Positions 16,756 to 63,027 of a stretch of 64,000 bases of DNA are shown here, in pieces. The stretch is from a virus. The notes beneath the pieces are model-generated. The model ran no database searches and was not told the origin of the DNA. It saw nothing but the letters and a program-made list of their open reading frames with translations. Within the stretch, counting starts at the first letter, position 1, and each line of letters opens with the position of its first letter. The stretch covers positions 1 through 64,000 of the IMG/VR virus record IMGVR_UViG_3300023109_002830; one strand, written 5' to 3'. A program made the position numbers and the translations under genes.

Positions 16756-16780
16756 TGAGTTGCACCTCATCATGCAGCAA

Positions 16781-16806
16781 GGGGGGACAAAGTCCCCCCT
16801 TTTTTT
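16781..16806 (+). terminator. Strong intrinsic terminator
   Basis: GGGGGGAC, loop AAA, GTCCCCCC, then seven T. It ends the plus-strand operon from 13422. The T-run overlaps the stop codon of the convergent minus-strand gene. Confidence 0.93.
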
Positions 16807-19119: not shown

Positions 19120-19129
19120 GGAGTTATAT

Positions 19130-19717: not shown

Positions 19718-20378
19718 CAATGATCTTCAAGAAATATTAGAAGATACTACTGATCTAAAGCATACTCATAAATTCCCTTGGCCTGCTTTATCGTATGGTC
19801 CATGTGAAAAGTTTAGAAGAGCTGACTTAGACATTATTGATGTTACAGAAACACGAAAACTATGGATGTTACACTTAGTAGTTTATCCGCATTTTAATGA
19901 TCCTTCTCCTATTTACGGGTTCGATATTATATCAGGTCCTAAGAAAGTTACTGGAGCTTTTCATGACTTTTCTCCTATGGACCATAATAGTACTATTATA
20001 ACACAGTTTGGAGAGAATGTAAAGGAGTTTATTCCATCAAAGAAAAGAGAACTTCCAGACTGGGCAAAAAATATTTTTAGTCCACATATGATTGCTGCAG
20101 GTAATGTAAATACAGACGCTGAAGTTGATCAAATATTAAGCTTAGCAATTAAAAATCTAAAAATGCACTTGTCTCATATTGGAAAAAAAACTTCTAAAGA
20201 TTTCTCAGCAAACCAATCATGGTACGTTTATAATCAAAGACAAAATCCACATACCCCACGCGTAATGGAATCATTAGGTATTGAAAAAGAAGTGGTTGAA
20301 CAATATATTGATGATTGTCTTTGGCCTATTACAGAAGCTTGGCAAAAAACTAAACCTACGTATTCAATGAATCTATAA
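19689..20378 (+). CDS. pcyX: Ferredoxin-dependent bilin reductase, PcyA/PcyX-like
   Basis: 229 residues. PcyA-type landmarks are present: PIYGFDIISGPKKV, then AFHDFSP (Asp93 matches the catalytic Asp105 of PcyA), LPDWAKNIFS, and a C-terminal YNQRQNPHTPRV. It is more like PcyA than cyanophage PebS. The marine viral class PcyX, a sister of PcyA, converts biliverdin to phycoerythrobilin; this and coupling to ho1 favour PcyX. Product specificity cannot be settled by reading. The last 23 nt overlap the convergent minus-strand gene. Confidence 0.85.
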   Translation: MMFQKLISASNDLQEILEDTTDLKHTHKFPWPALSYGPCEKFRRADLDIIDVTETRKLWMLHLVVYPHFNDPSPIYGFDIISGPKKVTGAFHDFSPMDHNSTIITQFGENVKEFIPSKKRELPDWAKNIFSPHMIAAGNVNTDAEVDQILSLAIKNLKMHLSHIGKKTSKDFSANQSWYVYNQRQNPHTPRVMESLGIEKEVVEQYIDDCLWPITEAWQKTKPTYSMNL

Positions 20379-21270
20379 GTGCTGTCCGGTTATGAGCTAG
20401 CACACAACTATAAGCTGAGCCTCCATCATGTGGCCGTGGTGGAACCCATAGCGTATACGGTATTTTACTTCTAATTTTTTTATTATATGCGCATCCTCCT
20501 GTTAAAATGATATTTTTAATACCAGTTTTTTTGACCCAATGCTCAATCATATTAACTACAAGTTCTTCAAATATTTCTTGAGTTGCAGATGCTAAGTCTT
20601 CTGCTCTAAAATTTTCATATATCCCACCTAATCCTCTATGCATATTTCTACTGAATCTTGGTTGCCAACCAGCACTAAGGACAAGATCACTTTTAATTTT
20701 ATTTTTAATTGCCGGGCTTGGTGTTACTGCTAGTGATTCAAAATGAGCTTCATCTTTTTGTGGCACAAGCTTCGCTTCTTTAACCATTGAGCTATAAAAT
20801 AAACCTATGCTATCTGGATATCTAATTGAAGCTTTTTTTGTAAGATCACCGTCATACTTCCATACTGAAGTACAATCCCATTCGCCAATAGAATCAATTA
20901 CAAAAACCAAGGCTTTATCAAAAGGACTAAAGGGTGATTTAAGTGCCCAAGATGCGTGAGCTTCGTGGTGGCCAACCCATGTCCAGCGAGTACGATCAAG
21001 TCCTAAATCGTCTAAAATTTTTCTAACATTATTTCTTTGAAAAGGATTTTTTTGGCCAGCCCACCATTGTCTAATAGATTTTAGATAAGGATTTTCGTAC
21101 CATACAACTAAATCAGGTGCACCAAACTTTTTCTTTAACGACTCTACATCTTCATATTTATGATAAGGCTCAGAAGTATAGTGCTCAACCATTACGTCTG
21201 TGTCATACCAAACAGTAATGCTAGCATCATGACCATGACCTGCCATACCCCATATTCTTTTACTTCTCAA
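20356..21270 (-). CDS. Short carbamoyltransferase-like protein (NodU N-terminal domain only)
   Basis: 304 residues if it starts at TTG 21270, which has GGAG 8 nt upstream; an ATG at 21345 would overlap the upstream gene by 86 nt. It begins GMAGHGHDASI and contains WVGHHEAHASWA, FVIDSIGEWD and ILTGGCAYNKK, matching the Kae1-like half of NodU-family enzymes. The C-terminal domain (the GPRALGNRS region seen at 14375) is missing. It could work on its own, as some short homologues do, or with a partner. Confidence 0.7.
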   Translation of the reverse strand: MRSKRIWGMAGHGHDASITVWYDTDVMVEHYTSEPYHKYEDVESLKKKFGAPDLVVWYENPYLKSIRQWWAGQKNPFQRNNVRKILDDLGLDRTRWTWVGHHEAHASWALKSPFSPFDKALVFVIDSIGEWDCTSVWKYDGDLTKKASIRYPDSIGLFYSSMVKEAKLVPQKDEAHFESLAVTPSPAIKNKIKSDLVLSAGWQPRFSRNMHRGLGGIYENFRAEDLASATQEIFEELVVNMIEHWVKKTGIKNIILTGGCAYNKKIRSKIPYTLWVPPRPHDGGSAYSCVLAHNRTALIDSLNT

Positions 21271-21631
21271 TTTGACTATCTCCAGGTTCAACTCTATAGT
21301 TATCCTCGACTGAATCTGGTGTCGAGACTTCAATAATAATACCAACGTTAGAAATGCATGTTAGTTTATGTGGTAACATAGGCGGAATAACTTTTGTATC
21401 TCCGGTTTCTAAAATCTCAATGTTTCTAGAAGCATCAATAGTATTGATTGTTTCTAGCCTAAATTGCCCTTCAAGTATATGCCAAGTTTCATGCTTCTCT
21501 TTATGTAAATGCATTGAAAAGCTTTTTTGCTGGTTAAACCTTAATAGTTTACCGCAGTACATATCATTAGTGGCAAAAATGAGTTCACTTCCCCACCCTT
21601 TATTCACTTGGCCAGATAACTGAGTTGCCAT
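21260..21631 (-). CDS. Cupin-domain protein
   Basis: 123 residues, a single cupin barrel. Motif 1 is SFSMHLHKEKHETWHILEG with metal-binding His and Glu, and motif 2 is PPMLPHKL. Similar small cupins are sugar isomerases or sugar-nucleotide isomerases, such as mannose-6-phosphate isomerase type II. Overlap with both neighbours in a sugar operon suggests action on a sugar or sugar phosphate. Substrate unknown. Confidence 0.72.
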   Translation of the reverse strand: MATQLSGQVNKGWGSELIFATNDMYCGKLLRFNQQKSFSMHLHKEKHETWHILEGQFRLETINTIDASRNIEILETGDTKVIPPMLPHKLTCISNVGIIIEVSTPDSVEDNYRVEPGDSQIEK

Positions 21632-22010
21632 CTTTAATCCTTTGTATAAGTCGAGAAGTAGATCTACCGCGTAAGGCTGGAATAATACGTACTTCTGCTA
21701 ATTCTTTGCCGACTACCTGATCTAGGTTATAATCACCACCTTTAGTAATGATATCGGGCTTTACTTCCTTAATTAAATTCCAAGGAGTTTCTTCATCGAA
21801 AATAATAACTTCGTCTACACAAGATAAAGCTTCTAATACTTGTTTTCGATCTATATCTATATTATAACATCTATTCTTTAGATTGTACAGGCTTTTATCA
21901 GAATTTAGCCCGACAATTAACCTATCGCCTAAAGCTCTAGATTGTTGAAGATAATTTACGTGGCCAGCGTGTAAGATGTCAAAGCAGCCGTTGGTGAATA
22001 TTGTTTTCAT
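21600..22010 (-). CDS. Heptose-phosphate nucleotidyltransferase (HldE C-terminal domain-like)
   Basis: 136 residues from the ATG at 22010 (MKTIFTNGCFDIL); an in-frame ATG at 22025 is possible. It has TNGCFDILHAGHVNYL (HxGH nucleotidyltransferase motif), GLNSDKS, EETPWNLI, KGGDYN and RSTSRLI, matching the RfaE domain II that makes ADP-heptose from heptose-1-phosphate. It is the first gene of the minus-strand operon. The minus promoter at 22016-22045 would place transcription start almost at this ATG. Confidence 0.82.
   Translation of the reverse strand: MKTIFTNGCFDILHAGHVNYLQQSRALGDRLIVGLNSDKSLYNLKNRCYNIDIDRKQVLEALSCVDEVIIFDEETPWNLIKEVKPDIITKGGDYNLDQVVGKELAEVRIIPALRGRSTSRLIQRIKDGNSVIWPSE
21861..21890 (-). 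promoter_or_regulatory. Intragenic minus-strand promoter CTGTAC-N18-TATAAT
   Basis: Reading the minus strand: CTGTAC (21890-21885), 18 nt, TATAAT (21866-21861). An exact match to the window's promoter motif, inside the nucleotidyltransferase gene and pointing at the cupin and carbamoyltransferase genes. Confidence 0.6.
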
Positions 22011-22018
22011 TATAAATA
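22011..22018 (+). promoter_or_regulatory. T4-type late promoter TATAAATA
   Basis: Exact TATAAATA, 36 nt before the gp13 start, in the short divergent gap. It overlaps the -10 of the minus-strand promoter next to it. Confidence 0.75.
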
Positions 22019-22045
22019 GTACCATAGATAACGTATTTTGTACAG
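22016..22045 (-). promoter_or_regulatory. Minus-strand promoter CTGTAC-N18-TACTAT
   Basis: On the minus strand, CTGTAC (22045-22040), 18 nt ending in ATGG, then TACTAT (22021-22016). The -10 has 4 of 6 consensus bases but spacing and -35 are exact. It would start transcription at or next to the ATG at 22010. Confidence 0.5.
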
Positions 22046-45325: not shown

Positions 45326-47794
45326 ATGTCATTTTACACTTCTGTCGCTCGTTACGGCAACTCTTTACTTTATCGTGGCTACAACCATAATGGTGTGCCA
45401 GTAAAGAAAAAAGTTAAATACGAGCCTACGCTTTTTGTGCCTACACAAAAGGAAACTACATGGAAATCTCTTGATGGTGTACCGGTTGCGCCTGTAAAAC
45501 AAGCATCTATGAAAGATGCTAAGGAATTCCTAGAAAGATATTCAGATGTTGCCAATGCTAAGGTATATGGCAACCAAAACTTTGTACACCAATACATCAC
45601 TGAAAGGTTTCCTCACGATATTCAATTCAATCGTGCACATATTCAAGTATGTAACATTGATATTGAGGTTGCCTCGGATGATGGATTCCCCGAACCTAGC
45701 GATGCTTTGCATCCTGTAATTTCTATTGCTCTTAAAATGAGCCGTGGTAACGTATACTATGTTTGGGGCTTAGATGATTATCATGCTAAAACTGATAATA
45801 TTCGTTATGTAAAGTGTGCTAATGAGCATGAGCTACTTAATAAGTTTATTAGTTACTGGGAGGATAATTGTCCTGATGTTATAACTGGTTGGAATACACG
45901 ATTTTTTGATATTCCATATCTCGTTAATCGTATTAATCGTATTGTTTCTCCTGAATCTATTCGTAGATTATCTCCTTGGGGTTTAGTGCACTTTCAAGAA
46001 AAAACTATCAAAGGCCGTAAGCAACAGGCATATGACATAGTTGGTATTTCTCAACTTGATTACATGGAATTGTTTATTAAGTTTGGTTATTCCTATGGTG
46101 CTCAAGAATCTTATGCACTAAATCATATTGCTTATGTTGTCCTTGGTGAAACTAAATTATCATATGAAGAATACGGTAACCTTTATAATCTTTACAAACA
46201 AAATCACCAGCTTTTTATTGACTACAACATTAAAGATGTCGAGCTTATTGAACGCCTTGAAGACAAGATGGGGCTTATCACACTAGCTGTGACTATAGCT
46301 TATAAAGGTGGTGTTAACTTCCAAGATACATTTGGCACTACTGCTATTTGGGATTCAATCATTTATCGTGAACTACATAAAAATAAAATTGCTATTCCTC
46401 CTGCTATCGAAAAAAATAAAATGGAATATCCTGGTGGCTTTGTTAAAGAACCACAGGTAGGTATGCATGAATGGGTATGCTCATTTGATTTGAATTCTTT
46501 GTATCCTAATCTTATTGTACAATACAACATGTCACCTGAAACAATCATTGGTGTCACTGAAAAAGGTGGTGTGGATTATTATCTTAATGGCCAAACAACT
46601 TGTTCCACTTATGCCACAGCAGCTAATGGTTGTACTTTTAATTGCGAAAAGCAAGGTATCATTCCTCAAATCATTGTTCAATATTACGATGAACGTAAGT
46701 CTGTTAAGAATATGATGATTGCTGCTATGAAAAAGTACGAGGTTGAAAAAACATTTGAACTTGAAAAAGAAATCAATCAACTCGAAAATCGTCAGATGGC
46801 TATTAAGATTCTATTGAATTCTCTTTATGGTGCACTTGGCAATAAGTACTTTCGTTATTTTGATATGCGTATAGCTGAGGCTATTACTTTATCTGGCCAG
46901 CTTGCTATTCTTTGGGCTGAACGTACTATGAACAAAGAAATGAATAACATCCTTAAGACTAATGATAAAGATTACGTTATTGCAATTGATACTGATTCGC
47001 TATATGTCAACATGGGGAATATAGTCAAACACTTTGAGCCAAAGAATCCAACAGCATTCCTTGATAAAATTTGTCAAGATCATTTTGAACCTGCTCTTGA
47101 AAAGTCTTATGCTAAAATGGCTAGCAACATGAATGCATACGATAATCGTATGGTTATGGCACGTGAAGCAATTGCTGATCGAGGTATATGGACTGCTAAA
47201 AAGCGATACATATTAAATGTACATAATAACGAAGGTGTACAATACGCTGCGCCTAAACTTAAAATCATGGGTATTGAGGCTATCAAATCTTCTACACCAG
47301 AAGTTGTGCGGGATAAGTTCAAAAAAATATTTCAAGTTATTATTTCTGGTGATGAACAAGCAACACAAAAGTTTATATCAGATTTCCGCGATGAGTTCAA
47401 AAGTCTTCCACCTGAAAAAGTATCTTTTCCACGTGGCACATCTGATTTATCAAAGTGGTCTGATAAAAAACTTGTTTATGGCAAAGGTACGCCAATTCAT
47501 GTACGTGGTGCTTTACTATATAATCACCACATCAAAGATAAAGCTTTACTTAAAAAGTATGTGACTATTAAAAACGGAGAGAAAGTAAAGTTTTGCTATC
47601 TTCGTATGCCTAACCCAATCCGCGAAAACGTAGTATCGTTTCCAGATTACTTACCTAATGAACTACAGCTTCATAACTATATTGACTATGAAATGCAGTT
47701 TAATAAAACATTCCTCGACCCATTGGAACCTATTCTAAATGCGGTTGGATGGAGTAGCTCAGAACAAATGACATTGGAGGATTTTTTCGTATGA
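45326..47794 (+). CDS. gp43: Family B DNA polymerase gp43
   Basis: 822 residues (T4: 898). 3'-5' exonuclease motif I NIDIEVAS (about 109-116), polymerase motif A FDLNSLYPNLI, motif B KILLNSLYGALGNKYFRYFD and motif C AIDTDSLYVNM. It ends with SSEQMTLEDFFV, the clamp-binding tail (a related LEEFFV tail closes the glycosyltransferase at 52821). No intron or intein. Confidence 0.97.
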   Translation: MSFYTSVARYGNSLLYRGYNHNGVPVKKKVKYEPTLFVPTQKETTWKSLDGVPVAPVKQASMKDAKEFLERYSDVANAKVYGNQNFVHQYITERFPHDIQFNRAHIQVCNIDIEVASDDGFPEPSDALHPVISIALKMSRGNVYYVWGLDDYHAKTDNIRYVKCANEHELLNKFISYWEDNCPDVITGWNTRFFDIPYLVNRINRIVSPESIRRLSPWGLVHFQEKTIKGRKQQAYDIVGISQLDYMELFIKFGYSYGAQESYALNHIAYVVLGETKLSYEEYGNLYNLYKQNHQLFIDYNIKDVELIERLEDKMGLITLAVTIAYKGGVNFQDTFGTTAIWDSIIYRELHKNKIAIPPAIEKNKMEYPGGFVKEPQVGMHEWVCSFDLNSLYPNLIVQYNMSPETIIGVTEKGGVDYYLNGQTTCSTYATAANGCTFNCEKQGIIPQIIVQYYDERKSVKNMMIAAMKKYEVEKTFELEKEINQLENRQMAIKILLNSLYGALGNKYFRYFDMRIAEAITLSGQLAILWAERTMNKEMNNILKTNDKDYVIAIDTDSLYVNMGNIVKHFEPKNPTAFLDKICQDHFEPALEKSYAKMASNMNAYDNRMVMAREAIADRGIWTAKKRYILNVHNNEGVQYAAPKLKIMGIEAIKSSTPEVVRDKFKKIFQVIISGDEQATQKFISDFRDEFKSLPPEKVSFPRGTSDLSKWSDKKLVYGKGTPIHVRGALLYNHHIKDKALLKKYVTIKNGEKVKFCYLRMPNPIRENVVSFPDYLPNELQLHNYIDYEMQFNKTFLDPLEPILNAVGWSSSEQMTLEDFFV

Positions 47795-48219
47795 GTGCAC
47801 CTTTCAAAGGCGACTTACCTTATGACATAAATTTTATGCATCAAAAATATGGTGTCCATAAGTGGATAGCCGAAAATAAAGATAACAAAGAACTAATGAA
47901 AAAGTTCTTAAAGTTTCGTCTTTCATTTCTTATGGAAGAACTACAAGAAACAGAAAAAGCTGTCGATGAAAAAGATTCTGAAGAAGTAGTTGATGGTCTT
48001 ATTGATTTGGTAGTTGTCGCTCTTGGCACGTTAGATGCTTTTGGAGTAGATACATATCGAGCTTGGGATGAAGTGCTTCGTGCTAATCTCGATAAAGAAG
48101 TTGGTGTAAAAGAATCACGCCCTAATCCATTAGGAATGCCTGATTTAATTAAACCTGAAGGTTGGAAAGCTCCAACACATAGAGGAAATCATGGCATTAT
48201 CCCTAACGCTTTTCAATAG
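47791..48219 (+). CDS. MazG-like NTP pyrophosphohydrolase
   Basis: 142 residues. The all-alpha pyrophosphohydrolase core has FLMEELQETEKAV (E-E-x-x-E) and EVVDGLIDLVVVALG (E-x-x-D), the Mg-binding pattern. It may remove unwanted dNTPs; T4 gp56 dCTPase belongs to the same broad fold, so it could lower dCTP for the cytosine-modification pathway. It overlaps gp43 by 4 nt and the next gene by 29 nt. Confidence 0.8.
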   Translation: MSAPFKGDLPYDINFMHQKYGVHKWIAENKDNKELMKKFLKFRLSFLMEELQETEKAVDEKDSEEVVDGLIDLVVVALGTLDAFGVDTYRAWDEVLRANLDKEVGVKESRPNPLGMPDLIKPEGWKAPTHRGNHGIIPNAFQ

Positions 48220-50120: not shown

Positions 50121-50308
50121 TGAAAAATGTAATTGGAAGTGCTCTTATTTTTGTAGGTTTCTTTTTAGTAATTGGTGCAGCAGGTTCTGATTGTGACGGC
50201 GATTGTATGGAAAACGCTTTGTCACTTTCTGAATTATTAGTGTTTACTTCTGTTGGACTTTGTGGTATAATAGCTGGATCAGCAATGTGTTTAAGGAGTA
50301 ATGTATAA
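50120..50308 (+). CDS. Small two-helix membrane protein
   Basis: 62 residues with two hydrophobic segments, VIGSALIFVGFFLVIGAAG and LLVFTSVGLCGIIAGSAMC, joined by an acidic Cys-containing loop (SDCDGDCMENA). It resembles small phage inner-membrane proteins (holin-like or superinfection immunity type), but no family is recognised. A promoter motif lies inside it. Confidence 0.55.
   Translation: MKNVIGSALIFVGFFLVIGAAGSDCDGDCMENALSLSELLVFTSVGLCGIIAGSAMCLRSNV
50242..50271 (+). promoter_or_regulatory. Intragenic promoter GTTTAC-N18-TATAAT
   Basis: GTTTAC, 18 nt ending TGG, TATAAT, inside the 50120 gene and 37 nt before 50308. It could give the hydroxymethylcytosine-supply genes their own transcript. 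Confidence 0.6.
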
Positions 50309-50505
50309 TGTCAAAAACAGGTCAAGCCTTTTATGAAGGTCAGGTTTTCGCTGAAGAAAACTTTAATGAAAGTAGAAATGTATTTGTTGATAAAGCTGAA
50401 GTGCAGTTTGGTAAACATACGTTTCAATATAGTTCTGCGCTATATGCTTTTGATGAAATTCAAAGCGATCTAAATAGCGTATGGAGTTCAAGTAATGAGC
50501 AATGA
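50308..50505 (+). CDS. Small protein (unknown)
   Basis: 65 residues: hydrophilic, acidic, with aromatic residues (FGKHTFQYSSALYAFDEI). No motif recognised. It overlaps the Nmad1-like gene by 11 nt, suggesting co-translation. Confidence 0.5.
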   Translation: MSKTGQAFYEGQVFAEENFNESRNVFVDKAEVQFGKHTFQYSSALYAFDEIQSDLNSVWSSSNEQ

Positions 50506-50821
50506 GCGCCAGTCTGTAAAAGTTTTGCAAGAATGTATTGCATTACAAATTAAAAAAGGCCAAGACTATCAGTCTGCTAAATCTAACGTAGTGCAAGCTA
50601 TGCACTATCGTCGAGGTGTAGATACTATCTACGATATCATGCATGGTAAAATGATGCGTGCTGCTTCTTTACTTGAGTCTGGTCAAGAACCTAATCACGA
50701 ATCTCTTGAAGATACGTTTATGGATCTTATTAATTATGCGTCTTTTGCTGTATCATATATGCGCGGTGAAATGGATGGACAGGATCCTAATAACGATATG
50801 TTTAATAGGCCAAAGAAATGA
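50495..50821 (+). CDS. Nmad1 / DUF1599-like protein
   Basis: 108 residues. The pattern GQDYQSAKSNVVQAM, TIYDIMHGKMMRAASLL, then ESLEDTFMDLINYASFA matches the DUF1599 family, called nucleotide modification associated domain 1 because it often lies with DNA base-modification genes. It is all-helical. It is directly upstream of the nucleotidyltransferase and dCMP hydroxymethylase genes. Confidence 0.7.
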   Translation: MSNERQSVKVLQECIALQIKKGQDYQSAKSNVVQAMHYRRGVDTIYDIMHGKMMRAASLLESGQEPNHESLEDTFMDLINYASFAVSYMRGEMDGQDPNNDMFNRPKK

Positions 50822-51234
50822 AGATAGGCCTTACAGCATCAACGTTTGATTTACTTCACGCTGGCCATATTGAAATGCTACGTGAAGCAAAGTCTAAATG
50901 TGATTATCTTATTTGCGCCTTGCAAATAGATCCAACCGCAGATCGTGACACTAAAAACACGCCTATCCAATCAATTGTAGAAAGACACACACAGCTAGCT
51001 GCAGTAAGATATGTAGATGAAATCATACCTTATTACTACGAAGCTGACTTAGAAGATATTCTACAAATGAAAACTATCCATGTAAGAATTCTTGGTGAAG
51101 AATACCGAGATAAAGATTTTACAGGTAGAGATATTTGTAAACATCGAGATATTGAATTGTATTTTAATAAGCGTGACCACAGATTTTCAACTAGTGGTCT
51201 AAGAAGGAGAGTAAGTAATGCAAAGCGTAAGTGA
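50818..51234 (+). CDS. Cytidylyltransferase-like nucleotidyltransferase
   Basis: 138 residues. TFDLLHAGHIEMLREAK carries the HxGH motif, followed by ERHTQLAAVRYVDEI, as in TagD-type glycerol-3-phosphate cytidylyltransferases, and SGLRRR near the end. It would activate a phosphorylated alcohol or sugar with CTP or ATP. In this setting it may serve DNA modification or surface sugars. It overlaps gp42 by 17 nt. Confidence 0.75.
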   Translation: MKIGLTASTFDLLHAGHIEMLREAKSKCDYLICALQIDPTADRDTKNTPIQSIVERHTQLAAVRYVDEIIPYYYEADLEDILQMKTIHVRILGEEYRDKDFTGRDICKHRDIELYFNKRDHRFSTSGLRRRVSNAKRK

Positions 51235-51919
51235 TATTCGTGAGATTTTTATAGACGCACTTAAAGGTGAAAGGTTTACTGTAGATCGAACCGGTCAAAA
51301 AACTATTGAAATGCTTGGTGCTTGCTTTGTTGCAGATGAGCCTGCTATTTTCGGCACGCCTAATCAAGACTATATTGATGCAGAAATCGATTGGTACATT
51401 GGTTGCTCAACAAACATTAATGACATTCCTTATGGTGATGAGCCGCCTAAAGCATGGCAGCACGCAGCAAACTCGCATGGTGAAATTAATAGTAACTATG
51501 GTCAACTAATTTTTAGTGACACATATTATCGTCAATTCGATAATGCTCTAAATGAATTGCTATATAATATGGATAGCCGTCGTGCTTCTATGATTTATAA
51601 TCGCCCTTCAATTTGGACAGAGTTTAATGCACATGATAAAAATGATTTTATATGTACTAATGCTGTCACTTATTATTTACGCGATGGCTCAATCCACGCT
51701 GTGGTCCAAATGCGCTCAAACGATGTTGTGTTCGGATACAAGAATGACTATGCTTGGCAGCGGTATGTTTTAGAAGAATTAACTCGAGCATACAACTATG
51801 AATACATGATGAGTGCTGCTGACGCAGACTATCGTAAAGATATGAAAGTTGGTAGTATAACATGGCAAGTACAAAACTTGCATGTTTATGAAAAACATTT
51901 TGAATTGGTAAAGTCATGA
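51218..51919 (+). CDS. gp42: dCMP hydroxymethylase gp42
   Basis: 233 residues (T4: 246). It aligns along its length with T4 gp42: VDRTGQKTIEMLGACFVADEP, GEINSNYG, SRRASMIYNRPS, DFICTNAV with catalytic Cys146, and MRSNDVVFG then KNDYAW, where Asp177 corresponds to the Asp that separates gp42 from thymidylate synthase. The reaction is dCMP plus methylene-tetrahydrofolate to 5-hydroxymethyl-dCMP. It makes modified cytosine likely in this phage's DNA. dCMP deaminase and an alpha-glucosyltransferase homologue are close by. Confidence 0.93.
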   Translation: MQSVSDIREIFIDALKGERFTVDRTGQKTIEMLGACFVADEPAIFGTPNQDYIDAEIDWYIGCSTNINDIPYGDEPPKAWQHAANSHGEINSNYGQLIFSDTYYRQFDNALNELLYNMDSRRASMIYNRPSIWTEFNAHDKNDFICTNAVTYYLRDGSIHAVVQMRSNDVVFGYKNDYAWQRYVLEELTRAYNYEYMMSAADADYRKDMKVGSITWQVQNLHVYEKHFELVKS

Positions 51920-52260
51920 TTGCAGGAAAAGTTTGGGGTCAAACAGAATTAGTTGAAGCAAACGGTGCATGTGAGTTCCATCGAATTGAATATAAAGCAG
52001 GAATGCAATGTTCAGAACATAAGCATGAATTTAAGTGGAATGGCTTTTATGTAGAGTCAGGCACTATGATGATTAGAGTATGGCAAGCAGATCAAGGATT
52101 AGTTGATGAAACTATTTTGTATCCTGGCGATTTTACAAAAGTAAAGCCTGGTCTCTATCACCAATTTGTTGGAATTGAAGACGGCGTTGCTTTTGAATTG
52201 TATTGGGCTGAATTCAATCACAATGATATTAAACGTAAAACATCAGGTGGTAAATCGTAA
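51916..52260 (+). CDS. Cupin-domain protein
   Basis: 114 residues. Cupin motif 1 GMQCSEHKHEFKWNGFYVESG and motif 2 YPGDFTKVKPGLYHQF hold the usual His/Glu/His metal ligands. It lies between gp42 and dCMP deaminase with 1-4 nt overlaps. Possible sugar isomerase or binding protein. Substrate unknown. Confidence 0.75.
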   Translation: MIAGKVWGQTELVEANGACEFHRIEYKAGMQCSEHKHEFKWNGFYVESGTMMIRVWQADQGLVDETILYPGDFTKVKPGLYHQFVGIEDGVAFELYWAEFNHNDIKRKTSGGKS

Positions 52261-52754
52261 TGTATGATAAGTGGGATAAACGTTATCTTGAATTAGCTAA
52301 GCATATTGCTTCATGGTCTAAAGATCCTTCAAGAAAAATTGGTGCAGTAGCTGTTGGTCATAACGGTGAAGTTTTATCTCAAGGATATAACGGCTTTCCA
52401 CGAGACATTGAAGATTTTCCTGAAAGATACAATGATAGACCAACAAAGTACAAATATGTAGTTCATGCAGAAATGAATGTCATATATAATTCATCATGGA
52501 ATGGTGTATCTCTTGCTGGTTCAACACTATACGTATATGGTTTACCTGTTTGTAGCGATTGTGCTAAGGGTATTATCCAAGTAGGCATTGAACGAGTAGT
52601 AATGGTTGATCAGGTTATTCCAGATGATTGGAAAAACTCTGCAAGCTTGACATTTGAAATGTTTGACGAAGCAGGTATAGTATATGAATTTGTTGATTTG
52701 GATGACGGACCATTTAACGATAACGTCGTTAAGCTTAAACCGAAAAAAGATTAA
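52260..52754 (+). CDS. cd: dCMP deaminase
   Basis: 164 residues (T4 cd: 193). Zinc motifs VHAEMNVI (H-x-E) and PVCSDCAKGI (C-x-x-C) are present, with the family start YLELAKHIASWSKDPSRKIGAV. It converts dCMP to dUMP for dTMP synthesis by ThyX (62362) and so sets the balance of dCMP available to gp42. It overlaps the cupin gene by 1 nt. Confidence 0.92.
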   Translation: MYDKWDKRYLELAKHIASWSKDPSRKIGAVAVGHNGEVLSQGYNGFPRDIEDFPERYNDRPTKYKYVVHAEMNVIYNSSWNGVSLAGSTLYVYGLPVCSDCAKGIIQVGIERVVMVDQVIPDDWKNSASLTFEMFDEAGIVYEFVDLDDGPFNDNVVKLKPKKD

Positions 52755-52761
52755 TTTTTTG

Positions 52762-52791
52762 GTGTACAAACCCTCATATATATGATATAAT
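52762..52791 (+). promoter_or_regulatory. Promoter GTGTAC-N18-TATAAT for agt operon
   Basis: GTGTAC, 18 nt, TATAAT, 29 nt before the glycosyltransferase start. AAAAAAGATTAATTTTTT just upstream is a weak AT stem. Confidence 0.83.
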
Positions 52792-52820
52792 AACTATTAT
52801 AATAAAGACAGGTGAAAAAT

Positions 52821-54041
52821 ATGAAAGTCGTACATATTCTAGGCCGCGGCATTGAAGGCTGCGGCGTAACTCGATTTACACTCGAACTAAAAGACTGGGC
52901 ACTAAAACAGGGGTGGGATTATACAGTCTATGCACCTAGTGATAAAAAGTGGACACGTGCCGCATCTCATTATTTAGATGAAAATATTAAACAGTGGAAG
53001 TGGGGTAATAAACCTGCTCGTGGTGATACGATCTGCGGCACTGAATTAATTGTTGAAGATTGCAATAATGCTGATGTAGTACTTATTGGTTCACTACCTT
53101 CTAAAGGTCACCCTGATGATTGTATTGAAAACTTTGGTAAGTTGATTAATGGAATCACGACTAAAAAAGTTATGATTCAACACGATCACAAAATGATGTC
53201 AATCAAGCGTAATGCTTTACTTGATGACGTTATCAAATCTGCAAACGTTATTCTATCATATTCTACTAAAAGTCCTTTTATGGATTACTGTAGAAATCTT
53301 GGTGCTAAAGCTAGTTCATATAGCTTTTGTAATGGTGTTAATGTAGAAAGCATTCGTAAACAATATTGGAAACCTATTGAAGATCAAGATCCTAATCACT
53401 TGAAATGGATTGGCAGGTCTGCATACTGGAAAGGTTTCGATGTTATGTTCGACTTGCAGAAAAGTTTGCCTGATCCTTTGTATACATTAGAAGGAATGGA
53501 AAAATCAATTCAGTTTGTTGATATCCGCGAAAAATTTGAATTCCACGAAATGGCAGAAGACTTTGATGTTCAAACATCACCCGGTGGAAAAGCTTATGTT
53601 TTCGGTGCATTCAAACATGCTGAAATGCTAGAACGTATGTCACGCTGTGGCTTTGGTTTTCAGTTGACAACTCTTCAACCTGAATACATTCAAAACTTTA
53701 TTGAATTTACTCACTTAGAAATTGCTGCTGTTGGTGTAGTTCCAATTTTTAGAAAAGCTTTTGGTGATCATTGTACACACTTGCAAACTGGCAATAGGCT
53801 TACTGCAGATAAAAACACTGGTACGATATGGGCAGGCGAAGTAGGTAGCGATTGGACAGAAACTATTGAAATCATAAATAAGCTTAGAAAAGATAATGTA
53901 ATGCGTGACGAATGGCGTGAAATGGCTTATGAATATTATGCATCGCACAATGGACCGGATGTGTCATTCCCTGATATATTCAATAAAATTGACAAAACAC
54001 CAGACAATCAATCACAGGGACTAGAGGAGTTTTTCGTATGA
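52821..54041 (+). CDS. agt: DNA alpha-glucosyltransferase homologue (T4 Agt-like)
   Basis: 406 residues (T4 Agt: 400), from the ATG at 52821 with AGGTG upstream. Segments shared with T4 alpha-glucosyltransferase include RGIEGCGVTRF (residues 9-19), TRAASH, QHDHKMMSIKRN (120-131), KWIGRSAYWKGF (195-206), AEMLERMSRCGFGFQL (267-282) and FTHLE (296-300). T4 Agt moves glucose from UDP-glucose to hydroxymethylcytosine in DNA. Its tail LEEFFV matches the gp43 clamp-binding end, fitting action behind the fork. The downstream UDP-sugar enzymes raise the question of the real donor. Confidence 0.9.
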   Translation: MKVVHILGRGIEGCGVTRFTLELKDWALKQGWDYTVYAPSDKKWTRAASHYLDENIKQWKWGNKPARGDTICGTELIVEDCNNADVVLIGSLPSKGHPDDCIENFGKLINGITTKKVMIQHDHKMMSIKRNALLDDVIKSANVILSYSTKSPFMDYCRNLGAKASSYSFCNGVNVESIRKQYWKPIEDQDPNHLKWIGRSAYWKGFDVMFDLQKSLPDPLYTLEGMEKSIQFVDIREKFEFHEMAEDFDVQTSPGGKAYVFGAFKHAEMLERMSRCGFGFQLTTLQPEYIQNFIEFTHLEIAAVGVVPIFRKAFGDHCTHLQTGNRLTADKNTGTIWAGEVGSDWTETIEIINKLRKDNVMRDEWREMAYEYYASHNGPDVSFPDIFNKIDKTPDNQSQGLEEFFV

Positions 54042-55000
54042 AACCTAAAAAGATTTTTATAACCGGTATTGCCGGAATGATTGGATACCACACAGCAAAA
54101 AAGTTAATGGATGCAGGTTATCACGTTAGTGGTATTGACAACTTTAACAATTACTACGATCCAAAGCTTAAGCATGCTAGAGAAGCTTTACTTATTGCTA
54201 ATGGATTAGATCCAGAGAATATAATTGTTGGTGATATTGGAAATGTAAATTTTCATAGTATCTTAAAAAATGTAGACTTAGTGATTCACCTTGCAGCATA
54301 TGCAAATCCACGACATGCAATGGCAGAACCGCAGCCATATATCGATACTAATATTTCAGGTACACAGCGTCTTATTGAAGGCGCTGAAAGAAATAAAGTT
54401 CCGATTGTATACGCATCAAGCTCATGTGTTATGCATGGTCAGCCTTTGCCGTGGAATGAAGATGATCGTCCAGCCCTACAAAACAATCCGTATGGTTGGT
54501 CTAAGTATGTAAACGAATGCCAGTTTGCACACAGCACTGTTGTAAAATCTGCCGGTCTTCGCTTCTTTACTGTCTATGGTCCTTATGGTCGACCAGATAT
54601 GGCACTGTTTAAGTTTGCTGATGGTATTGTAGCAGGTACGCCTATTGATCTATACAACTATGGTGATATGAAACGAGACTTTACTTACGTTGATGATATT
54701 GTACAAGGCGTTAAGATTGTAGCTGAAAATATTCTTAATGATAATCAAGAAGTTGACCATGAAGTTTTCTGTATTGGTTATGGTGAGCAAGTAGAATTGG
54801 TTGAGTTTGTAGATGAGATTGAAAAAAATCTTGGACGTAAAGCTGAAAGAAATCTTACACCAGCACATCCCGCTGATACTCCTGAAACTTGGTCAGATAC
54901 AACTAAAATTCAAAAACTTGGATATAAACCTACTACTTCTATTAAAGAAGGTGTAAGTCAATTTATTACATGGTACAAAGAATATTATGGAGTCAATTAA
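54038..55000 (+). CDS. UDP-glucuronate 4-epimerase-like NAD-dependent epimerase
   Basis: 320 residues. NAD loop TGIAGMIGYHTA, GIDNFNNYYDPKLKHAR, YASSSCVMHG, YGWSK (catalytic Tyr/Lys), then FFTVYGPYGRPDMALFKF and MKRDFTYVDDIVQGV. The GRPDMALFKF and Y-D-P-x-LK features match UDP-glucuronate 4-epimerases more than GalE. It would make UDP-galacturonate from the product of the next gene. It overlaps agt by 4 nt and the dehydrogenase by 1 nt. Confidence 0.82.
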   Translation: MKPKKIFITGIAGMIGYHTAKKLMDAGYHVSGIDNFNNYYDPKLKHAREALLIANGLDPENIIVGDIGNVNFHSILKNVDLVIHLAAYANPRHAMAEPQPYIDTNISGTQRLIEGAERNKVPIVYASSSCVMHGQPLPWNEDDRPALQNNPYGWSKYVNECQFAHSTVVKSAGLRFFTVYGPYGRPDMALFKFADGIVAGTPIDLYNYGDMKRDFTYVDDIVQGVKIVAENILNDNQEVDHEVFCIGYGEQVELVEFVDEIEKNLGRKAERNLTPAHPADTPETWSDTTKIQKLGYKPTTSIKEGVSQFITWYKEYYGVN

Positions 55001-55836
55001 TGTTTAATCATACTAGAACTCCTTTGATTGGCATTGTTGGTCACGGCTTTGTAGGTAAAGCTGTTGACTATGGCTTTAGTCAACGTGATGTAAAGAAGTT
55101 TATTGTAGATCCTAATATTGATACAACTATAGACGACTTAACAAAATTTGATCCTGATGTTACTTTTGTTGCAGTACCTACACCAATGTCAGATGACGGG
55201 AAAATCGATGCAAGTATTGTTACAAAGGTAGTTAAAGAACTAATAGATAAGACAAAAGGTTTTGTTGTAGTTAAATCTACAGTGACTCCTGATATTATGA
55301 TGGAGCTAGCAAATTTAGCTAGAGATAGAATTGTTTATAACCCTGAATTCCTTACTGAAAAAAATGCAAATGAAGACTTTATTAATCCTAAAATGCACGT
55401 ATTCGGTGGTGACCCAGGCACTTGTAGATTCATCGAAGAGCTTTTCGAAACCTGTTCGCTCTGCCGTCCATGTCCTGTCTTCCATGTGTCAATTGCTGAA
55501 GCAAGCCTTATCAAATATGGAATCAACAGTTTCCTCGCTACAAAAGTCCTCTGGTTCAATCAGTTTTACGATACTGTTAACGGCCATGGAAATTATAACC
55601 GGATTATTTCTGCTATTGCCAATGATCCTAGGATTGGTCATAGCCACACTATTGTACCTGGCTTTGATGGGAAGCGCGGTTTTGGTGGTGCTTGTTTCCC
55701 TAAAGATACACAAGCTTTATCATACTTTGATCCAGAATTCTCTATCCTTAAAGACGTTATTACAGCCAATAATAAAATTAGGTCAACGTATGAAAAGGAT
55801 TCTAGAGAGAAAGAACAGAATGTAAATTATGACTAG
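55000..55836 (+). CDS. UDP-glucose 6-dehydrogenase, short form
   Basis: 278 residues from the ATG overlapping the previous stop. NAD motif GHGFVG (14-19), VAVPTPM, VKSTVTPD, and the catalytic GFGGACFPKD with Cys232. The usual C-terminal UDP-binding domain (family length about 390-450) is absent, so it is a short version. It would oxidise UDP-glucose to UDP-glucuronate, the substrate of the upstream epimerase. Alternative: GDP-mannose or UDP-N-acetyl sugar dehydrogenase of the same family. Confidence 0.82.
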   Translation: MFNHTRTPLIGIVGHGFVGKAVDYGFSQRDVKKFIVDPNIDTTIDDLTKFDPDVTFVAVPTPMSDDGKIDASIVTKVVKELIDKTKGFVVVKSTVTPDIMMELANLARDRIVYNPEFLTEKNANEDFINPKMHVFGGDPGTCRFIEELFETCSLCRPCPVFHVSIAEASLIKYGINSFLATKVLWFNQFYDTVNGHGNYNRIISAIANDPRIGHSHTIVPGFDGKRGFGGACFPKDTQALSYFDPEFSILKDVITANNKIRSTYEKDSREKEQNVNYD

Positions 55837-57019
55837 TTATGCAAGTATTGTTCCGCTCATAGGCGGTGAAACTTTTGCTATGGAAAACGTGTTTGGTAAT
55901 AAACCCGAATACGTTTTATCATACTCGGGATTTGAAGCAAATGATAGCCAACTTCTTAATCATTATGGGAATAGTATTCCTTACTATAAACTTGATGAAG
56001 TATCTCATACCGCTTCTAAAGTGGACGTGGTCAATTCTGTTTGTCCTTGTGCAGGTTTGTCTAGTCTTAGTGTTAGTTCACGCTCTGATCACGAACATAA
56101 CGACTGGATGATTAAATCTTCTCAATACGTTCTTGAAAATGTACAACCTAAAGTATTGTGGGGTGAGAATGCACCAAGACTTGCATCTAAAATGGGTGAG
56201 CCTGTTGTAAAACAATTAAGACAACTCGCCAAAGACAATGGATACACGTTTAGTTTGTATAAAACAAAATCATTGCTTCATGGATTAAGTCAAATTCGTG
56301 ATAGAGCATTCTTTTTCTTTTGGAAAGGAAAGGCTGTACCTAAATTCGAATTTTATAAAAGACCACATATGAAGATTGAAGACCAAATTAGATCTTCTGC
56401 AAGAAATGATGAAGATCCTATGTCTAAAATTATTGTGCAAAAGGAAAAGCCTTCAGACAATCCTTTTTATCAATTCATCTTAAAAGAAATGTTAGGTGGA
56501 ATTGATCATATAGAATTTGCTAAAAGAATAGAAAAAACTACTAATGTTCTTCATTACTTTGAAGATAACGGTGGTAACTATTATGATATGTCTAAGTGGA
56601 TGATAAAAGAAGGATACGAAAGTCATTCTCAAAAATGTATTCGTATGGGAGATAAGTTAAAAGCAGGTGGTAACATTATGCGTAAGACTACTGAAATCCC
56701 AAAGGATTACATTGGAGCCTTTGTAGGTCATATGCCTATTATGCTTACACACCCAGATGCTGATAGATATTTGTCAATTAGAGAATGTTTAGATATTATG
56801 AAAATGCCTAAAGACTTTCAATTGGTTGGCGGAGTAAAAAATCTAAATATGATTTGTCAGAATGTTCCAGTTACAACAGCAGCTGACATGGCTGCAAACG
56901 TTAAAAGATTTGTTGAAGATGATATTGAATTGGTTGGATCTAACTTTGCAATTCAAGACAATAAATCACAAACCTTTTGGTATGAATCTGAGCCTAACAC
57001 ATTAGAAGTCTTTATGTAG
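55829..57019 (+). CDS. C5-cytosine DNA methyltransferase
   Basis: 396 residues. Motif IV NSVCPCAGLS holds the catalytic Cys74, motif VI is GENAPR (Glu113), motif VIII LSQIRDRAFFF, and a motif X-like end QNVPVTTAADMA. Motif I (PLIGGETFAMENVFG) is unusual. The region between VIII and X, about 130 residues, would be target recognition. It is in the agt operon, so it may tag phage or host cytosines beside hydroxymethylation. Specificity unknown. Confidence 0.83.
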   Translation: MTSYASIVPLIGGETFAMENVFGNKPEYVLSYSGFEANDSQLLNHYGNSIPYYKLDEVSHTASKVDVVNSVCPCAGLSSLSVSSRSDHEHNDWMIKSSQYVLENVQPKVLWGENAPRLASKMGEPVVKQLRQLAKDNGYTFSLYKTKSLLHGLSQIRDRAFFFFWKGKAVPKFEFYKRPHMKIEDQIRSSARNDEDPMSKIIVQKEKPSDNPFYQFILKEMLGGIDHIEFAKRIEKTTNVLHYFEDNGGNYYDMSKWMIKEGYESHSQKCIRMGDKLKAGGNIMRKTTEIPKDYIGAFVGHMPIMLTHPDADRYLSIRECLDIMKMPKDFQLVGGVKNLNMICQNVPVTTAADMAANVKRFVEDDIELVGSNFAIQDNKSQTFWYESEPNTLEVFM

Positions 57020-57020
57020 T

Positions 57021-57620
57021 ATGGTAGAATGGAGGCATGAAATGTGGCTAAATGATAAACCACCTGAATTAGTTAAAATTAATTTAGGTTGTAGCACTCA
57101 AAAAATCAAAGGAATGATAAACGTAGACATCACTCCTACGTGTAACCCTGATAAGGTTATGGACATTTCAAAGAAATGGGATTTCCCTGATGATTACTTT
57201 GATGAAATTCATGCTTATCATATTTTAGAACATCTTGATTACGAACAATTTATTGAATGTATGAAAGAAATATATAGGTGTGGTAAAGATGGATGCTTTG
57301 TTAAAATAGAAATACCACATGTAAGACATGATCATTATTGGGAAGACCCTTCTCATAAGTTACCTATTATGGCAGAAACATTTAACATGTTTCATAGAGA
57401 TACCTGTATAGAAATGTCAAGACTTAATCAAGGAAATACACCACTAGCAATGATTCATAACATTAATATCGTACCAATGAAGTGGCATCGATATTTGGAT
57501 AAAGGTATTAAAGCAAAGCTAGACAAAGGCGAGATTACAATGGACCAGGTGGACTATATGGAACGCCATAATAGTAATATTGTAATGGCTTATGGCATAG
57601 ATGCGTATGTTAGAAAATAA
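57021..57620 (+). CDS. SAM-dependent methyltransferase
   Basis: 199 residues. Class I fold: motif I KINLGCSTQKIKGMINVDI, then DYFDEIHAYHILEHLDY and a VKIEIPHVRHD strand. Similar small enzymes methylate sugars, lipids or small molecules. As last gene of the agt operon it might methylate the DNA-linked sugar or a surface sugar. Substrate unknown. Confidence 0.75.
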   Translation: MVEWRHEMWLNDKPPELVKINLGCSTQKIKGMINVDITPTCNPDKVMDISKKWDFPDDYFDEIHAYHILEHLDYEQFIECMKEIYRCGKDGCFVKIEIPHVRHDHYWEDPSHKLPIMAETFNMFHRDTCIEMSRLNQGNTPLAMIHNINIVPMKWHRYLDKGIKAKLDKGEITMDQVDYMERHNSNIVMAYGIDAYVRK

Positions 57621-57689: not shown

Positions 57690-58745
57690 ATGTCAGTAAT
57701 GGACAAGCTTAAGAAAAACTCACGACTAAGTCATACAGAAATTTTGGCTGAATCTAAATTTTTTACTGAAAAAGATATGACACCAACAGACGTACCTATG
57801 GTTAACGTTGCTTTGTCTGGTTCTATTGATGGAGGTTTAGCTCCAGGACTTACTGTACTTGCCGGTCCATCTAAACATTTCAAAACGTCATTTGCTTTGC
57901 TTATGGCTGGAGCATATCTAAAGCAACATAAAGATGCTGTTATGCTTTTTTATGATTCTGAGTTTGGTAGTCCTCAGAGTTACTTTACTCAATTTGGTAT
58001 TGATACCAATCGTGTACTACATACTCCAATTACAAATGTGGAAGAACTGAAGTTTGATTTAATACATCAGCTCGAAAATATTGATAGAAGCGATAAGGTT
58101 ATTGTTGTTATTGATTCAATTGGTAACCTAGCATCTAAAAAAGAAATGGAAGATGCACTAAATGAAAAATCAGTAGCAGATATGACACGTGCTAAAGCCC
58201 TTAAAGGTTTGTTTCGTATGTGTACACCATATCTTAATATGAAAAATATTCCATTGATAGCCGTTAATCATACATATCAAGAAATTGGTTTGTTCCCTAA
58301 AGCAATTGTTTCTGGTGGTACTGGTATATATTATTCAGCCGATAATATTTGGATTCTTGGTCGCCAACAAAATAAAGTAGGTACAGAAATTAAAGGCTAT
58401 CACTTCGTAATTAATGTGGAGAAAAGCCGTTATGTTAAAGAAAAATCAAAAATTCCTATCTCAGTTTCTTGGGAAGGTGGTGTTGAGCCTTATAGTGGTT
58501 TGCTCGCCGTTGGTCTTGCTGGTAACTATGTTGCTAAGCCTTCTAATGGTTGGTACTGTCACGTTGACCGTAGCACTGGCGAGCTTATGGATGCCAAGGT
58601 CAGAGAAAAAGATACTCTAACCGAAGAGTTCTGGAAACCAATCTTAGAAGAAACTGACTTCAAAGATTTTGTAAATAAACAATATGCAATTGGTTCAGAA
58701 TCAATTGTTTCTATGGATGCAATTGTAGAAGAAGCAAATGATTAA
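57690..58745 (+). CDS. uvsX: RecA-like recombinase UvsX
   Basis: 351 residues (T4: 391). Walker A LAGPSKHFKTSFALL, Walker B KVIVVIDSIGNLASK, and AVNHTYQEIGLFPKAIVSGGTGIYY. It performs strand exchange with UvsY and drives recombination-dependent replication. It overlaps the next gene by 8 nt. Confidence 0.96.
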   Translation: MSVMDKLKKNSRLSHTEILAESKFFTEKDMTPTDVPMVNVALSGSIDGGLAPGLTVLAGPSKHFKTSFALLMAGAYLKQHKDAVMLFYDSEFGSPQSYFTQFGIDTNRVLHTPITNVEELKFDLIHQLENIDRSDKVIVVIDSIGNLASKKEMEDALNEKSVADMTRAKALKGLFRMCTPYLNMKNIPLIAVNHTYQEIGLFPKAIVSGGTGIYYSADNIWILGRQQNKVGTEIKGYHFVINVEKSRYVKEKSKIPISVSWEGGVEPYSGLLAVGLAGNYVAKPSNGWYCHVDRSTGELMDAKVREKDTLTEEFWKPILEETDFKDFVNKQYAIGSESIVSMDAIVEEAND

Positions 58746-61449: not shown

Positions 61450-62372
61450 TGTTGTTAGCAGTTGGCTGCAGTTTTACGTGTAAAAGGTACGAAGGAGATG
61501 TTCCTTGGCCAGAACACTTGTCAAAAGAATTAAATAAACCTCTCATCAATAAAGGTATGGAAGGTGTAGGTAATAAGTATATTTTTAGAATTACTATGTC
61601 TGAGTTACAGAAAAATCCTGAAATTGACACTGTTGTTTTAGGATTAACTGGGTGGGATAGATTTGAGTTTGTTAAAAAGAAATATATGAGAGAAGACAGT
61701 ATCAATAATACTGCCGGCAAAACTCTTAAATTTATGAACGTAGCAACTCACCATCAATTACCAGATAATTTTGATGGCAGGTATCTTGCTGAAGTAGGGA
61801 AAAATATTGAAGAATCGACAATAGATGACTTAGCAGGATATTCTTATATTGACCATTACAATATTCCATATTTTATTGATGAAACTGTATCTTACATTTT
61901 AGCTTTACACGATGTTTGTGATAGACGAAATATTAAATTAATTATTATGCAGCTAGTGCCAGAGTTTAATGGATATTTTAGATATAACTATATTGGCAAA
62001 AGATTTTCAAATCAATTCTTAAAACCATATGTAGAAAAAAAATCTAATATTAAATACATAAATAAAAATATATTATGTTCTACAACGTATGACTTTAATG
62101 GTATGTTTTCGTATGTACCTCGTAGAATTACACCAAATAAACTTCACACGTTTTATAAAGATGATATTAAAAATGGCTTTAGAAAAAATGTGAATGTTTT
62201 AGGATACCATGAAAACATAATGGTTACAACAAAAACTAAACATCATCCTGATTTATTTGATCCTCATCCGGATAAAAAAGGTCAAAGGCTAATTTTCGAA
62301 AAAGCACTTGATCATTACAATAAAATAGAAAACTTAGATGAATATTATAAAAGGTCTCACTATGAACGCTAG
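61449..62372 (+). CDS. SGNH/GDSL-like hydrolase
   Basis: 307 residues. It starts AVGCSFT, where the Ser is in the block I position, has LINKGMEGVGNKY (Gly/Asn block II), VVLGLTGWDRFEF and a C-terminal DPHPDKKGQ (D-x-x-H block V). These esterases remove or add acyl groups on sugars and lipids. It lies between replication genes and thyX, an unusual place for a hydrolase. Substrate unknown. Confidence 0.7.
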   Translation: MLLAVGCSFTCKRYEGDVPWPEHLSKELNKPLINKGMEGVGNKYIFRITMSELQKNPEIDTVVLGLTGWDRFEFVKKKYMREDSINNTAGKTLKFMNVATHHQLPDNFDGRYLAEVGKNIEESTIDDLAGYSYIDHYNIPYFIDETVSYILALHDVCDRRNIKLIIMQLVPEFNGYFRYNYIGKRFSNQFLKPYVEKKSNIKYINKNILCSTTYDFNGMFSYVPRRITPNKLHTFYKDDIKNGFRKNVNVLGYHENIMVTTKTKHHPDLFDPHPDKKGQRLIFEKALDHYNKIENLDEYYKRSHYER

Positions 62373-63027
62373 ATTAATTAGCTACTCGCAAACAACGGAG
62401 AATTTACATGTCGGTAACGATGTCCAAGAACTTATCGCTTATTGCGCCCGTGTCTCGAATCCCTCAAACCAAATTAACGAGGAAACGTCGACAAAATTGC
62501 TACATTATCTTGCACAACACAAACATTGGTCGCCTTTCGAAATGGTGTCTGCTTGCCTAGAGATTGAAACTACACGAGATATTGGTCGTCAACTCTTACG
62601 TCACCGTTCATTCTCATTCCAAGAGTTTAGCCAGCGATATGCTGATCCTACACAGGATCTTTTATTTGTTAAACGTGGAGCTCGATTGCAAGATCCAAAG
62701 AATCGTCAGAACTCGATTGATGCAGCACCGTTACATATCCAAGACCAGTGGGATATTCATCAGCAGGAGGTTATTAGTAAATCTCTTGAAGTTTATAAAT
62801 GGGCAATTGATAATGGCATTGCAAAAGAACAAGCAAGAGCGGTATTACCAGAAGGTTGTACCATGTCTCGCATGTATGTTAATGGAACTCTGCGAAGCTG
62901 GATTCATTACATTGATTTGCGTTCTGCTAATGGAACTCAAAAAGAACACATTGAATTAGCTATAGCTTGCGCAGAAGCAATTAGTAAAATTTTCCCTAAT
63001 ATTATGGAGTACACGAATGACAATTAA
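62362..63027 (+). CDS. thyX: Flavin-dependent thymidylate synthase ThyX
   Basis: 221 residues from the ATG at 62362. The signature RHRSFSFQEFSQRY (80-93) is exact for R-H-R-x(7)-S. It makes dTMP from dUMP, using the product of the dCMP deaminase at 52260. Common in marine T4-like phages in place of T4 td. It overlaps neighbours by about 11 nt on both sides. Confidence 0.95.
   Translation: MNARLISYSQTTENLHVGNDVQELIAYCARVSNPSNQINEETSTKLLHYLAQHKHWSPFEMVSACLEIETTRDIGRQLLRHRSFSFQEFSQRYADPTQDLLFVKRGARLQDPKNRQNSIDAAPLHIQDQWDIHQQEVISKSLEVYKWAIDNGIAKEQARAVLPEGCTMSRMYVNGTLRSWIHYIDLRSANGTQKEHIELAIACAEAISKIFPNIMEYTNDN

Follow-up and report, generated by a model that had tools for sequence, protein, structure and literature searches.

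Does a marine relative of phage T4 glycosylate the cytosines in its own DNA, and where would the sugar come from? The question is raised by a run of same-strand genes lying between those for DNA polymerase (45326-47794) and UvsX (57690-58745) in IMG/VR virus record IMGVR_UViG_3300023109_002830, of which we analysed 64,000 of 64,356 bases (hereafter the window). The major capsid protein encoded there shares 61-66% identity with its counterparts in C48C1, Methylophilales phage Melnitz and Pelagibacter phages HTVC008M and Mosig, all of them marine T4-like phages, and the source of the locus is a marine relative of T4. Judged from its sequence, the gene run probably encodes a remodelled T4-type cytosine hypermodification pathway that would make alpha-glycosyl 5-hydroxymethylcytosine (hmC), the sugar being left unspecified. 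We assign this reading a probability of about 0.82, a figure that covers hmC formation and glycosylation of the alpha-glucosyltransferase (AGT) type.

Two genes carry this reading:

51218-51919, + strand: predicted dCMP hydroxymethylase of the T4 gp42 type (PDB 1b49, E 2.4e-68; C146 and D177 invariant)
52812-54041, + strand: predicted DNA alpha-glycosyltransferase of the T4 AGT family (PF11440, 1e-51; PDB 1y6f, E 2.5e-63; AF2 model); the start is GTG 52812 or ATG 52821

When the 233-amino-acid product of the first gene was compared with the PDB by phmmer, the match to T4 dCMP hydroxymethylase extended across residues 4-231, whereas ordinary thymidylate synthases scored about 5e-5. This difference rules out an ordinary thymidylate synthase and agrees with the full-length T4 homologue claimed in a preliminary description of this DNA. 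The protein is 52% identical to T4 gp42. Its Cys146 and Asp177 align with T4 Cys148 and Asp179, which we take to be the catalytic and the dCMP-selecting residues, and neither varies in any of the 110 sequences aligned. The gene product is a gp42-type hydroxymethylase by these comparisons and is predicted to produce hydroxymethyl-dCMP.

The product of the second gene is 33% identical to T4 AGT, and structures of that enzyme are its sole PDB sequence matches below 1e-3. All five motifs that had been listed in the preliminary description (EGCGVT, QHDH, WIGR, EMLERMS and FTHLE) are present. For an AlphaFold (AF2) model built from an alignment of 35 homologues (pLDDT 89.6), the top nine PDB hits are all T4 AGT (best E 8e-36, TM-scores 0.83-0.86; 1y6f 0.83/0.86), followed by a generic GT4 enzyme at E 2e-13 and a TM-score of about 0.6, so that a generic GT4 identity is also ruled out. 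The structural comparison by which the preliminary description could have been overturned thus left it standing. In T4 AGT, Gly15, Arg204 and Glu311 contact the phosphate and ribose, and His114, His116 and His140 contact the glucose (PMC6024577). Our alignment shows the first three to be kept in the window protein (within EGCGVT, WIGR and HLE), as are His114 and His116; position 140 is Tyr throughout the clade to which the window protein belongs. Sequence and model thus identify a T4 AGT-type DNA alpha-glycosyltransferase, for which transfer to hmC-containing DNA is predicted.

The arrangement of the locus is consistent with this assignment. Between 50495 and 57620, neighbouring genes mostly overlap or abut, the single clear gap being 57 bases upstream of the AGT gene, and the order polymerase (43), hydroxymethylase (42), glycosyltransferase, uvsX, 41 is common to the window and T4. 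Purifying selection acts on every gene of the cassette (dN/dS 0.05-0.23, window versus L004; L numbers denote loci collected in our scans). Every gene named in the preliminary description was found where it had been placed and with the residues given. That description had omitted four genes inside its interval, namely those for an epimerase (54038), a UDP-glucose dehydrogenase (UGD; 54970), a C5-cytosine methyltransferase-like protein (C5MT; 55829) and a further methyltransferase (57021), as well as a PRA-PH/MazG-like gene at 47791.

How might the nucleotide pool be prepared for such a pathway? The following genes bear on this question:

47791-48219, + strand: PRA-PH/MazG-like NTP pyrophosphohydrolase (PF01503, 2.4e-11)
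50495-50821, + strand: Nmad1/DUF1599 nucleotide-modification-associated protein (PF07659, 4.1e-7, above the cut-off)
52260-52754, + strand: dCMP deaminase (PF00383, 8.7e-19)
62338-63027, + strand: ThyX thymidylate synthase (PF02511, 1.1e-42)

The deaminase and Nmad1 genes had been placed in the locus by the preliminary description, as the domain matches bear out. Because ThyX offers a separate source of dTMP, the gp42-type enzyme need not make it. Scans anchored on AGT, hydroxymethylase, UGD and C5MT yielded more than 200 viral loci. Of 43 slots between polymerase (gp43) and uvsX that hold a hydroxymethylase gene, 40 also contain the PRA-PH/MazG gene and 39 contain Nmad1; neither occurs in any of 13 slots that lack hydroxymethylase (for MazG, Fisher p 3e-10 with no correction for relatedness; the hydroxymethylase-less slots were sampled through UGD). 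In genomes that have the block at another position, both genes remain with hydroxymethylase. Phage contigs whose cytosine modification has been demonstrated experimentally likewise combine PF01503 with dCMP deaminase and thymidylate synthase domains (PMC8670742).

From these parts a pathway can be proposed. The MazG-like enzyme, perhaps together with Nmad1, would drain dCTP to dCMP, which the gp42-type enzyme would convert to 5-hydroxymethyl-dCMP. Some kinase would raise this product to the triphosphate for incorporation by the polymerase, and once the DNA has been made, AGT would glycosylate its hmC in alpha linkage. UGD and the epimerase may provide UDP-glucuronate or UDP-galacturonate in place of host UDP-glucose.

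Several observations weigh against this reading. The window is a fragment of 64 kb, in which the families of the T4 hydroxymethyl-dCMP kinase gp1 (PF21448) and dCTPase gp56 (PF08761) were not found; five longer relatives (91-220 kb) likewise gave no match, whereas T4, the positive control, did. Because even the long relatives yielded neither family, complete exclusion of dCTP is unproven. Enzymes outside these families could serve the two steps. Since the PRA-PH/MazG gene at 47791 is linked to hydroxymethylase and its family co-occurs with thymidylate synthase domains in modified-cytosine phages, and since no gp56 family member was found, its product is a candidate stand-in for the T4 dCTPase. 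The remaining points of this kind concern the two sugar genes and the choice of donor:

54038-55000, + strand: NAD-dependent sugar epimerase, UDP-glucuronate 4-epimerase type (PDB matches; FFTVYGPYGRPDMA; Y152/K156)
54970-55836, + strand: short UGD (PF03721, 5e-15; PF00984, 1e-12); the start is perhaps ATG 55000

The closest solved relative of the epimerase is 5u4q (1e-70), deposited as a dTDP-glucose 4,6-dehydratase; Bacillus cereus UDP-glucuronate 4-epimerase (BcUGAepi, 6zl6) matches at 5e-43 and MoeE5 (6kv9) at 6e-32. The protein retains FFTVYGPYGRPDMA and the Tyr152/Lys156 pair. UDP-glucuronate decarboxylase (UXS) scores 9e-18, far weaker than the 4-epimerases. In addition, the decarboxylases have Glu at the position of Ser128 (PMC7984243), where the window protein has Cys130 and its homologues Cys or Ser. 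The product therefore resembles a UDP-glucuronate 4-epimerase and not a decarboxylase. This comparison bears on the possibility that a pentose, xylose or arabinose, is made through UDP-glucuronate. Phage RB69 provides a precedent, since it carries arabinosyl-hmC and has candidate sugar genes in the same position between DNA polymerase and uvsX (PMC6024577). In contrast to the window, with its AGT, UGD and UDP-glucuronate 4-epimerase, RB69 has other sugar genes and another transferase, in which none of the glucose-contacting His residues of AGT is conserved (PMC6024577). With no UDP-glucuronate decarboxylase found in the cassette, we consider the pentose route improbable.

UGD retains its catalytic Cys and Lys and its NAD site (GGACFPKD, KYGIN), and Cys242 is invariant in 76 homologues. 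It is truncated, however: the 288-amino-acid protein was found without the C-terminal UDP-binding domain (the third Pfam domain was not listed), and its alignments to enzymes of 390-490 amino acids stop near residue 274. UGD also occurs near uvsX beside genes for a CTP-transferase, a cupin, KdsA and KdsB in slots without hydroxymethylase. This result of the UGD-anchored scan weakens the case for UGD as strictly a DNA-modification gene.

The composition of the slot varies among relatives in a manner that bears on the donor. Counts of cassettes derive from anchored, top-scoring samples of related sequences and describe association rather than frequency. Among 79 distinct intervals between hydroxymethylase and uvsX, 43 carry AGT, 15 a protein termed c4, 12 a c1/PALP/c2 set (a PLP-enzyme cassette) and seven an INO1/HMUDK_hel/c1 set (an inositol-phosphate-synthase/hmdU-kinase-like cassette); two carry none of these. 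The AGT cassettes include UGD with the glucuronate-type epimerase in 20 cases, UGD alone in two and neither gene in 21. The c4 protein has a GT-B fold, with T4 beta-glucosyltransferase (BGT; 1j39) giving the top TM-score, 0.53, among the matches listed. It is accompanied by UGD and the glucuronate-type epimerase in five cassettes and by UDP-galactopyranose mutase and another epimerase in 10, never by both. The block stays intact where it has been relocated in the genome (L121, L129, L134, L175 and L212; L040-L042, L061 and L067). The transfer cassette between gp42 and uvsX is thus modular.

We slightly favour UDP-glucose over a uronic acid as donor, the latter being a live alternative. The former proposal, to which we give an even chance, is that AGT, like its T4 counterpart, draws on host UDP-glucose and that UGD and the epimerase are surface-glycan genes residing in a plastic slot. 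Half of the AGT cassettes lack both sugar genes, and the window AGT, whose subclade has UGD and epimerase, is sister to a subclade without them (L014-L020, 66-70% identical) that shares the active-site motifs examined, which argues against a uronic acid. None of the three glucose-contacting His positions, compared across AGT lineages, tracks the sugar genes: His140 to Tyr is found both with and without them in the window clade, and the change of His114 to Val or Leu in the other large AGT clade likewise fails as a marker of the donor. The presence of UGD with KdsA, KdsB and the CTP-transferase in hydroxymethylase-less slots supports the same proposal, as does the classification of UDP-glucose dehydrogenase as lipopolysaccharide-related by authors working on pelagimyophages (PMC7029224).

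Other features are less easily reconciled with host UDP-glucose and point to a phage-made galacturonate or glucuronate, placed on hmC by AGT or in a later step, which would add negative charge to the glycosylated DNA. The AGT stop overlaps the epimerase start by 4 bases, and stop-start overlaps continue through AGT, epimerase, UGD and C5MT. Two AGT lineages are coupled to UGD and epimerase genes in the AGT tree, and the pair accompanies AGT even in relocated blocks (L040, L041 and L121). Next to the same c4 transferase, UGD and epimerase alternate with the mutase as mutually exclusive donor genes. Finally, C48C1 has epimerase and UGD in its slot, with TET (PF12851, 3.3e-17) adjoining a c4 homologue, and neither hydroxymethylase nor AGT was found in that phage. 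The lack of a decarboxylase-type Glu in the epimerase is also in keeping with a uronic acid. Weighed against the truncated UGD and the AGT and slot comparisons given above, these observations leave a uronic acid possible yet doubtful. TET was found in C48C1 and Melnitz and not in the window or in long relatives with hydroxymethylase.

A broader scheme would have interchangeable glycosylation cassettes that bring their own sugar genes, delivering a uronic acid through AGT here and galactofuranose through c4 and the mutase elsewhere, with C5MT acting on hmC-DNA. We regard this combination as somewhat unlikely. Two further arrangements were seen among the loci. In L063, L071, L075, L084 and L213, a myo-inositol-1-phosphate synthase-like protein and an HMUDK_hel-domain protein replace the glycosyltransferase, which suggests chemistry on hmC that does not involve a sugar nucleotide. 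Marine relatives L222, L180 and L201 carry a T4 BGT homologue (26-28% identical) in addition to AGT beside C5MT; few GenBank phages are reported to combine alpha- and beta-glycosyltransferases (PMC13216743).

What role do the methyltransferase genes at the end of the cassette play?

55829-57019, + strand: C5MT (PF00145, 2.4e-15)
57021-57620, + strand: SAM-dependent methyltransferase (Methyltransf_23, 9.7e-5, weak and below the cut-off)

The catalytic motifs of C5MT are intact (PC74, EN113-114 and QxRxR155-159 are invariant in 96 homologues), and it is present in 43 of 43 AGT cassettes and 7 of 7 INO1 cassettes. C5MT is thus a constant partner of AGT and a predicted methyltransferase. One tentative explanation, compatible with any of the sugars, is that the genome is only partly substituted with hmC and that C5MT methylates the residual cytosines. 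The intact motifs would fit this view, as would the failure to find gp1 and gp56 families in the long relatives. The tie to the hydroxymethylase, AGT and INO1 cassettes argues to the contrary, suggesting a role on modified DNA. The second methyltransferase is restricted to the closest relatives (L003, L004, L006, L007 and L038).

Comparison with known systems places the locus more precisely. Like T4, the window has a gp42-type hydroxymethylase, a transferase of AGT family and fold, and hydroxymethylase and a DNA glycosyltransferase between gene 43 and uvsX. In T4, however, the slot enzyme is BGT and AGT lies elsewhere, whereas the window AGT occupies the slot together with UGD, epimerase and C5MT-like genes. 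The window differs further in encoding ThyX, in its hydroxymethylase-linked PRA-PH/MazG gene, in the Tyr at AGT position 140 and in the missing gp1 and gp56 families of its long relatives. Glucosylated hmC is established as protecting T4 DNA from restriction and CRISPR, and the DNA of the present phage may be protected likewise.

The MetaGPA phages, in which modified cytosine has been shown, also combine a hydroxymethylase-type thymidylate synthase, PRA-PH and dCMP deaminase (PMC8670742). There the transfer enzyme is a carbamoyltransferase encoded next to hydroxymethylase; in the window it is AGT, and the two carbamoyltransferase genes, which have unrelated neighbours, are some 30-35 kb distant. 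Of these two (14375-16180 and 20356-21345 (-)), one encodes a full-length protein that has both the N- and the C-terminal domain, the other a protein with the N-terminal domain only. In other phages, 5-carbamoyloxymethylcytosine is the product of a related family (PMC8670742). We rejected the window proteins as hmC-modifying enzymes, given that no homologue was found in any hydroxymethylase neighbourhood fetched. The cyanophage S-TIM5 group resembles the window in having AGT-family and C5MT-like homologues in one genome (L231, 6754-8034; L232, 5989-7206), but the two genes are non-adjacent, and T4-type hydroxymethylase and TET were not detected. Aeromonas phage phiAS4 and Erwinia phage FBB1 have hydroxymethylase and, as in the alternative marine cassette, a UDP-galactopyranose mutase adjoining a c4-type transferase; unlike that cassette, the mutase-c4 pair lies away from hydroxymethylase, and these phages gave no AGT match.

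Is such a locus rare, as the preliminary description had supposed for marine T4-like phages? This holds for the most closely related cultured phages, where hydroxymethylase and AGT never occur together, and fails for viral metagenomes. A single seed scan matched hydroxymethylase in 589 viral contigs, which makes this gene common, and an exact-seed scan found AGT encoded in 33. In the literature on hmC in marine T4-like phages, there was no report of this locus (subscription papers were outside the scope). The inference of glycosylated cytosine is well supported as far as hmC and AGT-type glycosylation are concerned, namely by sequence, active-site residues, fold, T4 gene order and purifying selection; the donor may differ from UDP-glucose. 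'T4-like' is too simple a label for the locus, given the possible donor difference and the gp1 and gp56 results. The locus is a variant of the T4 system that is common in viral metagenomes and is set apart by modular sugar-supply cassettes and a constant C5MT partner.

Glycosylation of hmC by T4-type enzymes is known mainly from enteric phages. Here the same chemistry seems to be encoded by a marine lineage that is widespread, within a slot of modular make-up where the sugar-supply genes vary with the transferase. If donors differ, the ocean would hold several sugar-hmC DNAs, each presenting a different substrate to restriction enzymes, CRISPR and modification-dependent defences, and such DNA could bias DNA-based surveys. 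The pairing of AGT with C5MT poses a second puzzle.

Two further genes lie in the locus:

50818-51234, + strand: nucleotidyltransferase (CTP_transf_like, HldE/G3P-cytidylyltransferase-like; PF01467, 5.9e-11)
51916-52260, + strand: small cupin, a variable accessory gene (PF07883, 3.1e-6, barely above the cut-off)

It is uncertain whether the nucleotidyltransferase belongs to the hypermodification pathway, and its gene also adjoins UGD in loci without hydroxymethylase in the slot. The cupin is found in some relatives only. A conserved protein of about 125 amino acids (cluster c0) lies between dCMP deaminase and the transferase in L029 (835-1215) and 38 other loci, and is absent from the window; its VGMNPS and HPSP motifs recall uracil-DNA glycosylases, and no Pfam or PHROG match was obtained. 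KdsA and KdsB, which function in CMP-Kdo synthesis, occur in the polymerase-uvsX slot with hydroxymethylase or UGD (L097, L092, L101 and others). Elsewhere in the window, a second sugar cluster (13413-22025) encodes GT9-like, PfkB kinase, epimerase, HAD phosphatase, CTP_transf-like and cupin proteins and resembles the ADP-heptose pathway. Amid tail and sugar genes at 19097-20378, a heme oxygenase (PF01126, 1.4e-15) is followed by a ferredoxin-dependent bilin reductase (PF05996, 9.4e-16), which together form a phage bilin-pigment gene pair.

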